Part shown: in pieces, positions 12,796 through 58,980 of the stretch
Layout: every line of letters begins with the position of its first letter
Numbering within the stretch: position 1 is the first letter of the stretch
From: Deltaproteobacteria bacterium
GTDB taxonomy: Bacteria; Myxococcota_A; Polyangia; Haliangiales; Haliangiaceae
Direction of reading: 5' to 3'
Assembly: GCA_025353585.1 (NCBI GenBank)
Contig: JANXOM010000233.1
Coordinates: 1 to 64,000, forward strand
Length of the DNA stretch: 64,000 nucleotides
The notes under the pieces: model-generated
Told to the model about the DNA's origin: nothing
Database searches by the model: none
The model's input: the letters and a program-made list of their open reading frames with translations, nothing else
Position numbers and translations under genes: made by a program

Positions 12796-13106
12796 CGTGC
12801 GCGCGCTGCGGCGCCGAGTACGAGGGCAAGAAGCGGCGCTGGTGCGCGGACTGCGAGGTCGGCTACGACGGGTGGGTGCGCCAGTACGCGACCGACATGA
12901 TCGCGCCCGTGCTCGGCGCCATGGTCGTGGTGGTCACGTGCGCGGTGGGCCTACCGCTCCTCGGCGTGCCGACGCTGGTCGCGGTGGCCGGGGCGCTCGG
13001 CGGCTTCGCCACGCTGGCCGGGCTCACGCAGCTCAACATCCGCCGGCGGCGCAAGCAGTTCCGCCTGGCCGTGCCGCCGCGCGCGTACTTGCCGGCCAAG
13101 ACGTGA
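12792..13106 (+). CDS. Small zinc-ribbon membrane protein
   Basis: A 104-residue protein not assigned to a named family. It starts with a CxxC...CxxC knuckle (MTCARCGAEY and RWCADCEVGY, residues 3-20) that could bind zinc. Two hydrophobic helices follow around residues 38-75, then a basic stretch (NIRRRRKQFR) and a short tail, so the zinc ribbon and tail probably face the cytoplasm. The ATG overlaps the preceding phosphatase stop (ATGA), so the two are likely made together. No enzymatic motif is visible. Confidence 0.65.
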   Translation: MTCARCGAEYEGKKRRWCADCEVGYDGWVRQYATDMIAPVLGAMVVVVTCAVGLPLLGVPTLVAVAGALGGFATLAGLTQLNIRRRRKQFRLAVPPRAYLPAKT

Positions 13107-13130
13107 CGGTAAGCGCGCTGCTTACGGCAA

Positions 13131-13267
13131 AGCCGCTGAGGAAGAAGAGGTCAGAGGAGCCGCACCGGAAATAGGTTGTAGCCGGCTGGTCAGAGCGCCA
13201 ACCATCTCTCCTCCGGGCTCCTCTGACCTCCTCTTCCTCGGCGCCTCTGCGCTATATGCAACGCACC
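13131..13267. repeat. Long hairpin repeat, copy 1
   Basis: An imperfect inverted repeat in the gap between two convergent genes. The left arm includes GAAGAAGAGGTCAGAGGAGC at 13141-13160. The right arm includes GGCTCCTCTGACCTCCTCTT at 13216-13235 and runs on into GCGCCTCTGCGCTATATGCAACGC. Arm words recur at 34645-34808 and 57055-57227. The centre carries GGTTGTAGCCGGCTGG...GCGCCAACC, the reverse complement of the copy 3 centre, so this copy is inserted in the opposite orientation. It may act as a transcription terminator, but its conservation points to a mobile or REP-like family. Confidence 0.75.
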
Positions 13268-13285
13268 GACTGTTGCCCCCGACCG

Positions 13286-34157: not shown

Positions 34158-34622
34158 ATGTCGCGCGTGATCGCCCTGACCGTCACTGCTGCTGTCTCCG
34201 CGCTCGTCGCGGCCCACGTCGCCTCGTGCGTCAACGTCGCGCCGGGAGCCGTGGCGGTGGGTCCCGGCGTGCCCGTCGCGCCGATCCCGCCGATGCTGCT
34301 CGGCGAGCAGGTCGTGGTGTTCACGGCGCCCGGCCAGCAGTGCGGCCCCGGCGCCGCGTGCAACTTCGAGTGCCCCGAGGGCAACTGCAGCTTCACGTGC
34401 GCGGCCGGCTCGACGTGCAACGTCGACTGCCCCGGCGGGAACTGCCAGCTCGGGTGCGAGGGCGGCGCCGTCTGCAACTTCGAGTGCGCCGGCGGCAACT
34501 GCACGACCGCGTGCGCCGGTGGCTCGACCTGCAACGTCGACTGTGACGGCGGCTCCTGCAGCGCCAGCTGTGCTCCCGGCGCGAGCTGCGCCGGCCACTG
34601 CGCGGGCGGCTCCTGTAGCTGA
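34158..34622 (+). CDS. Cysteine-repeat lipoprotein
   Basis: A 154-residue predicted lipoprotein. The ATG at 34158 is chosen because GGAGG stands five bases upstream and because it gives a signal ending in AHVASC. After a hydrophobic Pro/Gly linker (to about residue 60) the rest is a run of cysteines spaced with Gly/Asn: CNFECPEGNCSF, STCNVDCPGGNCQLGC, CNFECAGGNC, STCNVDCDGGSC. The unit is roughly 24 residues with four to five Cys each, too regular for chance. Such arrays form compact disulphide or metal-binding rods. No known domain name is claimed. The coding end runs into the repeat-rich gap that follows. Confidence 0.72.
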   Translation: MSRVIALTVTAAVSALVAAHVASCVNVAPGAVAVGPGVPVAPIPPMLLGEQVVVFTAPGQQCGPGAACNFECPEGNCSFTCAAGSTCNVDCPGGNCQLGCEGGAVCNFECAGGNCTTACAGGSTCNVDCDGGSCSASCAPGASCAGHCAGGSCS

Positions 34623-34644
34623 CGGTTCGCGCGTTGCGTCTGCT

Positions 34645-34808
34645 CGTTGCGTAGCGCAGAGGCGCAGAGGAGGAGGAGGTCAGAGGAGACGACGGAGAGG
34701 TTTGGCGCCAGGGAGGCCGATCCCACGGCCGCCGCACCCCTGGAATCAAACCCCTTCCGATCGTCTCCTCTGACCTCCTCCTCCTCTGCGCCTCTGCGCT
34801 ACGCAACG
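34645..34808. repeat. Long hairpin repeat, copy 2 (perfect 48-base arms)
   Basis: Bases 34645-34692 and 34761-34808 are exact reverse complements over 48 bases, with a 68-base spacer. The arms open with CGTTGCGTAGCGCAGAGGCG and contain GAGGTCAGAGGAG. The same arm words occur in copies 1 and 3. It lies between the cysteine-repeat lipoprotein and the convergent pirin gene. The stem would form a very stable structure in RNA or single-stranded DNA. Confidence 0.9.
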
Positions 34809-34843
34809 CCCAGACGCAACGCCCAGGCGCGACGCGCCGACTC

Positions 34844-35863
34844 TCAGCGGCGCTCGACGCGGCCGTCGGCGTGGCGGGCGAAGCGGCCCTCGGTGCGCGC
34901 GTGGACCGGGTCGTCGGACGGCCACGGCCAGCCGCCGAATCGCGTGCGCTGGTAGTCGGCGAACGCTTGCTGGATCTCGGCGCGCGTGTTCATCACGAAC
35001 GGGCCGTGCTGCACGACGGGCTCGCCGATCGGCTTGCCCTGCAGCAGCAGCATTTCGGTCTCGACGTCGCCGGCCACGAGCGTCACCGCCGCATCGCCGA
35101 CGAGCGCGACCGCGCTGGCTCGCACCGCGCGATCGGCGACGCGCGCCGAGCCGCAAAACACGTAGAGCGTGCGGTTCGTCCCCGCCTTCGCCGGCGGGAG
35201 CGTCCACGCCGCGTTCGGCGCCATCTTGATCGTCCAGATCGCGACGTCCGCCTCGGCGCGCGCGGCCCACGAGTTCGGCGGCGGCGGCGGCGCGCTCGCG
35301 GTGACGTCGGGCAGCCGGCCCGCGATGGTCACGACCTCGGTGATGCGGCCGGCCGCGTCGGTCAGGACGTGCCGCGGGATCGCGTCCGCCCACAACATCG
35401 TGAAATACGGATCCACCAGCTTGTCCGCCTTGGGCAGGTTCAGCCAGATCTGGAACAGCTCCAGCGGGTTCGCGGCCGTCGCCTCCAGGAGCGGGAACAT
35501 CTCGGCGTGCGAGACGCCCTTGCCGGCGGTGAGCCACTGCGTGTCGCCGCCACCGAAGCGCGCGGCCGCGCCCAGGGAATCGCTGTGGTCGATGAGCCCG
35601 CGGCGCACCACCGTCACGGTCTCGAAGCCGCGGTGCGGGTGCTGCGAGAAGCCCGGCACCTCCGTGCCGTGATACATGCGCCAGCCGTCCTTGCCGGCGA
35701 AGTCCTGCCCGAGGTCGCGCCCGGCCAGCGAGGCGACAGGGCCCATCTTGTCGTTGCCGGCCGGGTAGGCGTCGTCGTGGTGCACGCAGAACAGGAAAGG
35801 ATCCGGCGTTTGCCACGGGAATCCGAGGGCGGACACCGAGAGGATGGGGTCGCGGGTGGACAT
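34844..35863 (-). CDS. Pirin family protein
   Basis: A 339-residue bicupin. The N-terminal cupin holds the pirin metal-site motifs: HPHRGFETVTVV (His at the first positions), DTQWLTAGKGVSHAEM and FQIWLNLP. The second cupin ends in a variable C-terminus. Bacterial pirins include quercetin 2,3-dioxygenases and regulators of pyruvate dehydrogenase; the role here cannot be told. In the gap upstream, GTAAC-N4-GTTAC at 35876-35889 is a small inverted repeat that could be an operator. The next gene lies divergently about 160 bases away. Confidence 0.9.
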   Translation of the reverse strand: MSTRDPILSVSALGFPWQTPDPFLFCVHHDDAYPAGNDKMGPVASLAGRDLGQDFAGKDGWRMYHGTEVPGFSQHPHRGFETVTVVRRGLIDHSDSLGAAARFGGGDTQWLTAGKGVSHAEMFPLLEATAANPLELFQIWLNLPKADKLVDPYFTMLWADAIPRHVLTDAAGRITEVVTIAGRLPDVTASAPPPPPNSWAARAEADVAIWTIKMAPNAAWTLPPAKAGTNRTLYVFCGSARVADRAVRASAVALVGDAAVTLVAGDVETEMLLLQGKPIGEPVVQHGPFVMNTRAEIQQAFADYQRTRFGGWPWPSDDPVHARTEGRFARHADGRVERR

Positions 35864-55387: not shown

Positions 55388-57046
55388 ATGCGACAGCGGC
55401 TATGCTCGTGCCCCGTGCGCGTCTTCGCTCCGCAGCCGGCGGTCTCGGCGCTGCCCCCTCGGTTGCCGAGCCCGTTCGCGCGCGAACCGCACCCGATCGC
55501 GCGCCGCGCGGCCGCGGAGCTGAACGCGGAGCTCCGCGCCGGGCTCGCGGCGGATGCGCGGCTCGCGACGCCGGGCGGCGGCAAGATGTTCGGCGTGCTG
55601 GTGTGCCTCCGGCCGGCGGACGGCGTCGTGGGCTACCTGCGCGCGTTCAGCGGGATGCTCGGGGGGCGCTGGACGGTCGAAGGGTTCGCGCCGCCGGTCT
55701 TCGACGAGGCCGCGCGCGCGGCGTGGTGGCCGGCGAGCGAGGTCGAGCTCGCGTCGCTCGAGGCGCAGCGCGCGGAGCTCGGGGGGAGCGACGCGGCGCG
55801 GGCGGCGCGCGGGCGGCTGGCCGAGGTGAGCGCGCGGCACGCGGCGGAAGGCGACGAGATGAGAGCACGGCACGCGGCGAACCGCGCCGGGCGGCATGCG
55901 GCGCGGGCCGCAAGCGGACCTGCGGCCGCGGCCGGAACCGCTGACGCGCTCGACCAGGCGAGCCGGGCCGATACCGCCGAGAAGCGCGATCTGCGCGCCC
56001 GCCACGCCGCCGCGCTCGCGGCCGCGGCCGCCCCTGTCGCCACGCTCGACGCCGCCCTCGCCGCCCTCGCCGAAGCGCGCGCCGAGAAATCGCGCGGCTT
56101 CCTCGCGCGTATCCACGCGGGCTACACGCTCACCACGTTTCGCGGCGAGACGCGCGCGCTGCGCGACATCTTCGCGCCCGACGCGCCGCCGGGCGGGGCC
56201 GGTGACTGCGCGGCGCCCAAGCTGCTCGCGCACGCGCAGCGCCTCGGCCTGCGCCCGCTCGCGCTGGCCGAGCTCTGGTGGGGCGCGCCCCCCACGACCG
56301 GCGGCCGCCTCTCCGGCGCGTTTTATCCGGCCTGCCGCGGCAAGTGCGGCCCGCTCCTGCCCGCGCTCCTCGAGGGCCTGCCCACCGAGCTCGCGCCGCA
56401 GTTCGGCGGCGGCCCGATCGCCGCGGACGAGCCGCGCACGCTCTTCGCCGACGCGCACGTCGTCGTCGTGGCGAAGCCGTGCGGCCTGCTCTCCGTCCCC
56501 GGCCGCGGCGGGGCGCTCCGCGACTCGGTGCTCGCTCGCGTGCGCGCGCGCGATCCGGACGCCACCGGCCCGCTCGTCGTGCACCGCCTCGACCTCGACA
56601 CCTCCGGCGTGCTCCTGATCGCGCGCGATCCGGCGACGCACACGGCGCTGCAGGCGCAGTTCGCGCGCCGCGAGGTCACGAAGCGCTACATCGCCTGGCT
56701 CGACGGCGAGCTCGCCGCCGAGACCGGCACGATCGACCTGCCGCTGCGCGTCGACCTCGACGATCGCCCGCGCCAGCTCGTCGACCCCGCCCACGGCAAG
56801 CCCGCCGTCACCACCTATCGCGTCCTCGCGCGCGCCGGCGGCCGTACGCGCGTCGAGCTCTCGCCGCGGACCGGCCGCACCCACCAGCTCCGCGTCCACT
56901 GCGCCGTCGGCCTCGGCGCGCCGATCACCGGCGACCGCCTCTACGGCACGCCCGCCGATCGGCTGGAGCTGCACGCCGAGTCGCTGGCCTTTTTGCACCC
57001 GAGGACGGGAGAGCGCGTGGAGGTGCGCTGGCCGGCTCCCTTCTGA
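55388..57046 (+). CDS. RluA family pseudouridine synthase with long N-terminal region
   Basis: A 552-residue RNA-modifying enzyme. The catalytic domain (residues about 350-550) has VVHRLDLDTSGVLLIARDP with the catalytic Asp402 and ELSPRTGRTHQLRVHCA, LGAPITGDRLYG at the end. The first 340 residues are a helical Ala/Arg-rich region (EVSARHAAEGDEMRARHAANRAG) that probably forms a coiled coil, as in the long RluA subgroup. A GTG at 55415 is an alternative start. The target RNA is unknown. The stop lies a few bases before the long hairpin repeat (copy 3). Confidence 0.9.
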   Translation: MRQRLCSCPVRVFAPQPAVSALPPRLPSPFAREPHPIARRAAAELNAELRAGLAADARLATPGGGKMFGVLVCLRPADGVVGYLRAFSGMLGGRWTVEGFAPPVFDEAARAAWWPASEVELASLEAQRAELGGSDAARAARGRLAEVSARHAAEGDEMRARHAANRAGRHAARAASGPAAAAGTADALDQASRADTAEKRDLRARHAAALAAAAAPVATLDAALAALAEARAEKSRGFLARIHAGYTLTTFRGETRALRDIFAPDAPPGGAGDCAAPKLLAHAQRLGLRPLALAELWWGAPPTTGGRLSGAFYPACRGKCGPLLPALLEGLPTELAPQFGGGPIAADEPRTLFADAHVVVVAKPCGLLSVPGRGGALRDSVLARVRARDPDATGPLVVHRLDLDTSGVLLIARDPATHTALQAQFARREVTKRYIAWLDGELAAETGTIDLPLRVDLDDRPRQLVDPAHGKPAVTTYRVLARAGGRTRVELSPRTGRTHQLRVHCAVGLGAPITGDRLYGTPADRLELHAESLAFLHPRTGERVEVRWPAPF

Positions 57047-57054
57047 CGGTCTGT

Positions 57055-57227
57055 GCGTTGCGTTAACGCGTTGCATAGCGCCGAGGCGCCGAGGGAGAGG
57101 AGATCAGAGGAGCCGGAGCGGAAATGGTTGGCGCTCTGGGTAGCCGGCTACCAACCCATTCCGTTCCGGGCTCCTCTGATCTCTTCTTCCTCTGCGCCTC
57201 TGCGCTATGCAACGCGTCAACGCAACG
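57055..57227. repeat. Long hairpin repeat, copy 3
   Basis: Imperfect inverted repeat between two convergent genes. The left arm begins GCGTTGCGTTAACGCGTTGC and the right arm ends ATGCAACGCGTCAACGCAAC. Inner parts GATCAGAGGAGCCGGAGCGG and CCGGGCTCCTCTGATC pair well. The loop reads GGTTGGCGCTCTGGGTAGCC, the reverse of copy 1. The right arm overlaps the last codons and stop of the membrane kinase gene that ends at 57217, which encode SLR. Confidence 0.8.
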
Positions 57228-58980
57228 AGCGCACCGTCGGGCGCGCCCAGCCGCCCCGGGCGCCGAGGCCCTCGCCGTGCGCGCGGAGCTCGTCGGGCAA
57301 GGCGCTCTTGGTCGCCGCGGCCAGCGCGTCGCCGAGCTCGGCGGCCGTCGCGAAGCGGGCCGACGGCGCCTTGGCCAGGCCGATCGCCAGCACCGCGTCG
57401 ACGTCGCCCGGCAGCTTCGCCAGATCGCTCGGCCGCTGCGGCGCGGTGTGCACCACCCGGTACAAGGTCTCCGCGATGTCGCCGGCCGCGAACGGCGGGT
57501 AGCCCGTCAACGCGCGGTACGCGACGGCCGCGAGCGCGTACAGGTCCGTCCGGTGATCGACCTCCGCGCCGCGCGCCTGCTCGGGCGCCATGTACGACGG
57601 CGTGCCGACCACCTGGCCCTGCGTCAGCGTGTCGCCATGGTCGTGCAGGCGCGAGACCCCGAAGTCGAGGATCTTCCACGTCCCGCGGCTGAGGAACACG
57701 TTCTGCGGCTTGAGATCCCGATGGATCACGCCCGTCGCCGCCGCCGCGGTGATCCCGACGCCGACCTGGCGCACGAGGTCGACCACCTTCTCCGGCGACA
57801 GCGCGCGCTTGCCGCGCAGGATCTCCGACAGGGTGTGCCCCTCGAGCCGCTCCATCACGAGGTACGGCACCGGGTGGTCGCCGATCGCGATCACCTCCAC
57901 CACGTTCGGCGACCGCACGCCCGCCGCTGTCCGCAGCTCGCGCAGGAACCTTTGCACGTGCTGGGCGTTCGAGAGCGACGCCTGCGAGAGCAGCTTGATC
58001 GCCACGCTCGCCCCGCTCTTCGGATCCATCGCCGCGTAGACCTCGCCCATGGCGCCGCGCCCGATGACGTCGCCGAGCTCGTAGCCGCCGATCACTTGCC
58101 CCGTGAATCGGCCGCGGCCCGCGCGCAACGCCCGCTCGAGCTCCTCGCGCGCCTCGAACAGGAGCGCCTCGCGATGCGCCGCCTGCCGGACCGCCCGCTC
58201 GAGCTCGCCGAGCGCGACCAGCGCCGTCCGCCGCGACACGCGCGCCGTCACGAACGTCCCGCACAGCACGATCTGCACGAGGCCCTGCACGATCCACTGC
58301 GTCGATGCCGACAGCTCCACCGGCCGCACGAGCCCGGTGTCCCGCGTGACGTGCGTGATCACGAGGACCCCGATGAGCCCCTGCGCCGCCGCGCAGACCG
58401 TGTACACCGCGACGGCGAGCCGGCCGTTTTCGCCGAGACCCGTGAAGTACACGCCGAGCACGAGCAGCGTGCACGCGGGCGAGAACGAGCCGAAGTAGGG
58501 GATCGCGGCCGTCACCGCGACGGCCGGGATGAAGAAGCCGAGCGACGTCGACGGCAGCTTGTAGCGCAGCGGATCGCCGGTGCGCGCGAACAGGAACGCG
58601 ATCGCCCCGACCGCCGCGACCGCCGCGCCGAGCAAGATCTTCGTCGCGACTGGATCGCCGGGCAGCGCGAAGACCGACCCGCCACCCGCGATCACGAGCA
58701 CCAGCGCGATGCCGCAGAACCGCCGCGTCCGGAGCAGCTCGTCGCGCTCGAGCGCCTCCTTCGGCGAGCCGATCATCGTCGTGCCGCCCGTGTGAGGTAC
58801 GGCCGATCCCGCCGAGAGGAGCGACGGCGAGCTATCCGCGGTCAGGACCGGCGGGGCCTGCGCGGGGGCGCGCTTCACGGCCACGGTCGCTTCGGCGTCC
58901 CCCGCCGTGGCCGCCGCCGGATAGGCCACGGTCGCGGCCGTCGGGTCGCTGTTGCGTTCGCTGCCGTCTGAGCCCGCCAC
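57217..58980 (-). CDS. Ser/Thr protein kinase with N-terminal membrane domain
   Basis: A 587-residue kinase with reverse layout: the kinase domain is C-terminal (about residues 290-555). N-terminal residues about 80-250 hold six hydrophobic helices (CGIALVLVIAGGGSVFAL, ILLGAAVAAVGAIAFLFA, TLLVLGVYFTGLG), like a small sensor domain. Kinase motifs are canonical: IGRGAMGEVY, VAIKLLSQ, HRDLKPQNVFL, DFGVSRL, MAPEQARG. So this one, unlike the kinase at 31280, keeps the catalytic Asn. Its stop codon lies in hairpin repeat copy 3. The upstream gap carries the start of a small gene on the opposite strand. Confidence 0.9.
   Translation of the reverse strand: MAGSDGSERNSDPTAATVAYPAAATAGDAEATVAVKRAPAQAPPVLTADSSPSLLSAGSAVPHTGGTTMIGSPKEALERDELLRTRRFCGIALVLVIAGGGSVFALPGDPVATKILLGAAVAAVGAIAFLFARTGDPLRYKLPSTSLGFFIPAVAVTAAIPYFGSFSPACTLLVLGVYFTGLGENGRLAVAVYTVCAAAQGLIGVLVITHVTRDTGLVRPVELSASTQWIVQGLVQIVLCGTFVTARVSRRTALVALGELERAVRQAAHREALLFEAREELERALRAGRGRFTGQVIGGYELGDVIGRGAMGEVYAAMDPKSGASVAIKLLSQASLSNAQHVQRFLRELRTAAGVRSPNVVEVIAIGDHPVPYLVMERLEGHTLSEILRGKRALSPEKVVDLVRQVGVGITAAAATGVIHRDLKPQNVFLSRGTWKILDFGVSRLHDHGDTLTQGQVVGTPSYMAPEQARGAEVDHRTDLYALAAVAYRALTGYPPFAAGDIAETLYRVVHTAPQRPSDLAKLPGDVDAVLAIGLAKAPSARFATAAELGDALAAATKSALPDELRAHGEGLGARGGWARPTVRSLR

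Follow-up and report, generated by a model that had tools for sequence, protein, structure and literature searches.

A long hairpin with perfectly matched arms lies between two converging genes in the 64,000-nucleotide stretch of DNA analysed here (hereafter, the window), and it raises the question of whether such a structure is kept for its RNA or is one copy of a repeat that moves. The source genome is an 8.0-Mb high-GC draft of 437 contigs, ~90% complete and with some contig ends inside elements, and a window gene had its best protein matches among named genomes in Deltaproteobacteria, Kofleriaceae and Myxococcales MAGs, which points to an uncultured myxobacterium. As the sequence-only reading had described, the two 48-nt arms (34645-34692 and 34761-34808) are perfectly reverse-complementary and enclose a 68-nt spacer. 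The pairing reaches further outward, giving 62-nt arms of 97% identity with two mismatches (34631-34692 and 34761-34822). Folded as RNA, the region reached -175 kcal/mol against -85.6 +/- 4.2 for dinucleotide shuffles (z = -21), and chance was therefore excluded. On the left, outer units (34620-34652, plus strand) begin with TGACGGTTCGCGCGTTGC, which provides the gene at 34158-34622 with its TGA stop codon, and are followed by the left perfect arm (34645-34692, plus strand), which carries the octamer word GCGCAGAG twice at 34654-34670 and then a purine-rich tail ending in GGTCAGAGGAG. The spacer (34693-34760) holds an inner stem, GGTTTG...CAAACC. The right perfect arm (34761-34808, minus strand) is the reverse complement of the left, and the right outer units (34809-34846, minus strand) reach the stop codon of a pirin gene (34844-35863). 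The gene at 34158-34622, which ends at the element, is cysteine-rich with internally repeated units and had no match in a Pfam search.

The window has two further copies, and each of the three is found between convergent genes, in agreement with the earlier claim. The 13-kb copy (13105-13272; arms 13127-13161 and 13216-13250, 89% pairing) has a left arm of a second type (TTACGGCAAAGCCGCTGAGG) and a right arm of the first type, a loop related to the 57-kb loop in reverse orientation, and TGACGGT at both flanking stop codons. The 57-kb copy (57044-57238; arms 57045-57127 and 57156-57238, 82% pairing) is flush with the rluA stop codon (57044-57046), and a kinase gene (57217-58980) runs into its right outer unit, with its stop codon inside. 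The sequence-only reading had reported that the arm words recur in these two gaps; both copies are real, and the spelling needs small corrections, in that GCGCAGAGGCGCAGAGG is exact at 57189-57205 but differs by one letter at 13236-13252, and the word in the 57-kb copy is AGATCAGAGGAG instead of AGGTCAGAGGAG.

To count the family genome-wide, we combined pattern searches with an arm model of 58 positions built from 39 arms (cut-off E <= 0.01). The model matched 76 arms, corresponding to ~30-40 elements when weak single matches are allowed for, and a 35-nt arm word with at most 3 mismatches had 39 matches. Only three copies, all at orthologous positions in relatives, had been proposed as a sign of ordinary terminators, and this is not what the genome holds. 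In general, an element has an interior of ~58-106 nt that is enclosed by two inverted arms. From the outside, each arm has at least one outer unit TGACGGTTnnnGCGTTGC, sometimes tandemly duplicated, then two tandem VCGCNNAG words and a purine-rich tail ending in GGTCAGAGGAG; the consensus of this first type (type A) is GACGGTTnGnGCGTTGCGTAGCGCAGAGGCGCAGAGGAAGAnGAGGTCAGAGGAG. The second type (type B), TTACCGCAAAGCCGCTGAGG, is present in elements on contigs C74 and C56; in the 13-kb copy, an arm of one type faces an arm of the other. The arms occur as singles, inverted pairs and tandem clusters, a range also known from REPINs (PMC3116915). On two contigs (C394:1-5000 and C266:1-3500; loci L352 and L358), diverged family arms form tandem direct arrays at ~180 nt spacing.

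Six elements (C71, C39, C290_13 in reversed orientation, C290_57, C242 and C122) have related loops, with z of ~4.5-12 versus shuffles, and blastn of ~0.85 kb of flank per side showed these flanks to be unrelated. The same loop therefore stands at unrelated loci in either orientation, indicating that the unit was duplicated and dispersed, as the term dispersed repeat family had implied.

The 34.6-kb copy has the longest trustworthy perfect arms genome-wide (48 nt), in keeping with its earlier description as the best copy, followed by one on contig C131 (43 nt); all others reach at most 21 nt. Long, trustworthy perfect arms are thus found in 2 of ~29 measured copies, and elsewhere both arms diverged independently. 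The perfection had been taken to imply recent spread or strong selection, which becomes one option among others. The 34.6-kb copy may be a recent insertion, or its arms may have been re-matched by hairpin-templated replication; likewise, it and the C131 copy could be the youngest of the family or could have been re-matched via template switching, which passages of two papers (PMC8604942; PMC8794818) describe as a known process homogenising inverted repeat arms. An apparently longer perfect hairpin on C362 (59 nt) was rejected, its right arm lying at the contig end and conflicting with contig C264. Parts of one element and its flanks are common to C362 (end of L025), C264 (start of L051) and C280 (L022), in inverted orientation; the locus may be duplicated or vary among strains, or the assembly may have gone wrong across the hairpin. 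With flanks shared and the C362 right end in conflict with C264, a reading of C280 and C362 as sibling copies with arm conversion was dropped.

The 35-nt arm word, at up to 3 mismatches, had no match in a set of 55 relatives that includes 15 congeners, and a 26-base pattern had no exact match in the named genome collection, which may omit the source genome. Judged by these searches, the family appears nearly restricted to the source species. The arm model found 12 weak matches in the congener G009, with a core, ACCGCCAAGCCGCCGAGGACGCCAAGGTCAGAGGAGG, recognisably related to type B, and the family is therefore common to the genus at a deeper level with a spelling that differs per species. Similar designs were detected across Myxococcota, with inverted arm pairs in which each arm has 2-4 tandem RCGCNNAG octamers whose letters are genome-specific: ACGCCAAG in G007 and G004, ACGCGAAA in G012 directly after a pirin stop codon (L110), ACGCAAAG/GCGCGGAG in G201 (40 matches), and GCGCAAAG in G153 and G296. 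Both pair arrangements are present in these genomes, as in REP dimers. Three tandem octamers were found in 32 of the 284 sampled genomes, some of which are plain tandem arrays; the octamer pattern read backwards was not used as a chance level, as AGAG-type arrays match it too. These designs could reflect common ancestry or merely a shared recipe. A literature search for the arm words, short on subscription journals and so weak evidence of novelty, returned no relevant paper, and the wider class of myxobacterial repeats resembling this family is apparently undescribed. It is possible, and we propose it tentatively, that inverted arrays of ~8-nt VCGCNNAG words with genome-specific spelling form a widespread myxobacterial class whose elements would be moved, independently of RAYT transposases, by a system that targets stop codons. 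Among the loci inspected, the hairpin at L110, in the congener G012, stands at the 3' end of the same pirin gene that adjoins the 34.6-kb element in the window and is of other sequence (TTAACGCGAAAACGCGAAA words); a contig end of another myxobacterial genome (L303, G391:C3:1-1500) carries a long plain tandem array of ACGCTGAG octamers; and an inverted repeat TGTCATTCCGAACGCAGTGAGGAATCTG on a betaproteobacterial MAG contig (L142, 2547-2622) is an unrelated short hairpin.

The tips of the elements often abut stop codons. Where a gene ends at most 60 nt from a core arm, the end reads TGACGG in 17 of 43 cases; among other gene ends, this sequence stands at 1 of 56 in the window (p = 1e-6) and at 4 of 49 in the fetched loci (p = 4e-4). 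At the 57-kb copy, the rluA end reads ...PAPF-TGA|CGGTC. Of the 15 congeneric orthologs, 14 end at this very codon and the one in G009 ends two codons later, and therefore the element abuts the native stop codon and the gene was not truncated; all 15 orthologs are without the element. An empty site with both flanks conserved was not found, the pirin and rluA neighbours not being syntenic in the genus. By eye, no direct repeat that could be a target site duplication was evident outside the tips, where the borders are blurred by tandem outer units. The abutment could arise from an enzyme preference for TGA or from the survival of harmless insertions, and exact abutment in two fifths of the cases leans toward the former.

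Placement at gene ends also bears on an RNA function, namely that the elements are bidirectional terminators or mRNA 3'-end stabilisers kept between convergent genes for a useful hairpin. This would fit the great stability of the hairpin and the location of 15 of the 24 elements with both neighbours called between convergent genes, versus 15 of the 62 window gene pairs (p = 7e-5; the calls come from a simple codon-usage gene caller written for this analysis, and some, such as those on C87, may err). However, four of the remaining elements lie between minus-strand genes, two between plus-strand genes and three between divergent genes, and the rluA orthologs manage without the element. An intrinsic terminator has a GC-rich stem followed by a U-tract; no such T-run after a stem was detected in 34500-34950. 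The partners of a selected RNA hairpin or terminator should be more alike than strangers, and the core arms argue against either: across 18 type A elements, mismatches were 4.83/36 within and 4.76/36 between elements (permutation p = 0.63). Identity within elements was not in excess for the inner 22 nt (p = 0.13), and the outer 18 nt showed a weak excess (p = 0.03). The core pattern fits copies of one consensus in which each arm would have decayed independently. Neither compensatory change nor an Rfam family marks a structured RNA here, every Rfam match being below the gathering score and most being eukaryotic miRNA hairpins; plasmid and phage collections likewise gave nothing convincing for the element. 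The earlier suggestion of terminators is accordingly not borne out, and we regard a role as terminator or stabiliser as unlikely.

Mobility in turn invites the reading that these are strict REP/REPIN repeats, with one of the genome's Y1 (RAYT-like) transposases as their mobiliser. Seven PF01797 (RAYT) genes, which match the REP-associated tyrosine transposase model weakly, are present in the source genome; the inverted pairs are REPIN-like, REP termini likewise supply stop codons (PMC3733652), and GTAG occurs within the arm consensus, as a majority letter string only. Despite these seven genes, the RAYT with matching ends that the sequence-only reading had suggested looking for was not found. 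No arm pair lies within ~1.5 kb of any of 37 Y1/PF01797 loci (7 own and 30 in four congeners), a count in which contig gaps leave room, and three octamer-rich Myxococcota genomes, 94-98% complete, have no PF01797 gene; strict REP/RAYT membership is therefore not supported. Nor does the arm resemble a short, imperfect, tagged palindrome: a single 55-nt arm folds weakly as DNA, with z not beyond -1.4 versus shuffles, and a 37-nt core forms a 4-bp stem from two GCGC words of the source genome whose counterparts do not complement each other in type B or in most relatives. We consider movement by a resident Y1 enzyme unlikely. A search covering PF01797 genes found no parent transposase with matching ends. 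Beside three of four closely related Y1 (RAYT-like) genes of the source genome lies a distinct, very long inverted repeat (L058 2150-2492 on C323, L059 2562-2945 on C69 and L061 2160-2588 on C421), with arms of up to 114 nt and GGTTATCCACAAC and CCCGCCCCCAACCTTCGGTTTT words in several; these hairpins resemble the TIRtrons of Di Nocera et al. (PMC3733652). Alternatively, the elements could be binding arrays or slippage products, octamers that grew locally in tandem and were paired by template switching without any mobile element. The tandem octamers, the outer units that are at times duplicated, the genome-specific spelling in other Myxococcota and the failure to find a transposase would all suit such an origin, but local growth does not place the same loop at unrelated loci and leaves the abutment of stop codons unexplained, so that we find it very unlikely.

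The family was further compared with known repeat systems. REPINs are REP doublets that form hairpins (PMC3116915), and the elements share with them two inverted conserved ends, a less conserved spacer, a long hairpin, tandem clusters and the dispersal of inverted hairpin pairs in extragenic space. In contrast to REPINs, the ends are tandem octamer words with a purine tract and not a REP palindrome, the copies are fewer, no linked RAYT flanked by the same repeat was found, and the core arms showed no compensatory change. REPs tagged with GTAG or CGTC are palindromes of 20-40 bp that carry a single tag; among them, the CGTC REPs also occur without a known transposase, and TIR families can reach moderate abundance (PMC3733652). 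Tagged REPs and TIRtrons are similarly enriched at 3' ends and convergent junctions, and their termini give flanking genes stop codons (PMC3733652), whereas the arms here are ~55 nt and not palindromic. The TIRs of TIRYT genes are defined by the tyrosine transposase gene that they flank, and none was found here. Like the bacterial MITEs RUP, NEMIS/Correia, ERIC and Nezha (PMC3733652), the elements are short, non-coding and gene-adjacent, with inverted termini and several dispersed copies; unlike them, they consist mostly of their inverted arms, and neither a parent insertion sequence nor a target site duplication was found.

Taken together, we consider it likely that the 34.6-kb hairpin belongs to a family of dispersed, non-autonomous mobile repeats of a REPIN/MITE-like kind. 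The earlier suggestion of a mobile REP/MITE-like element gains support from the 76 arms, the shared loops at unrelated sites and the 15 congeners without a match at up to 3 mismatches. An enzyme supplied in trans would recognise the inverted arm pair, possibly as a single-stranded DNA hairpin, would copy or move it, and would prefer TGA stop codons as targets, leaving coding ends intact; after insertion, each arm would decay on its own. The family is real and dispersed and probably mobile; its octamer-built arm is unusual, and its abutment to stop codons is strong. If these were ordinary REPIN relatives, they would add a new family and not a new principle. If mobile as proposed, they would represent a repeat class of the Myxococcota, a phylum to which the cited REP literature gives little prominence; the arm grammar is simple, the placement at stop codons is precise, and at least three of the genomes have no RAYT gene, and the question of what moves transposase-less REP-like repeats would become testable.
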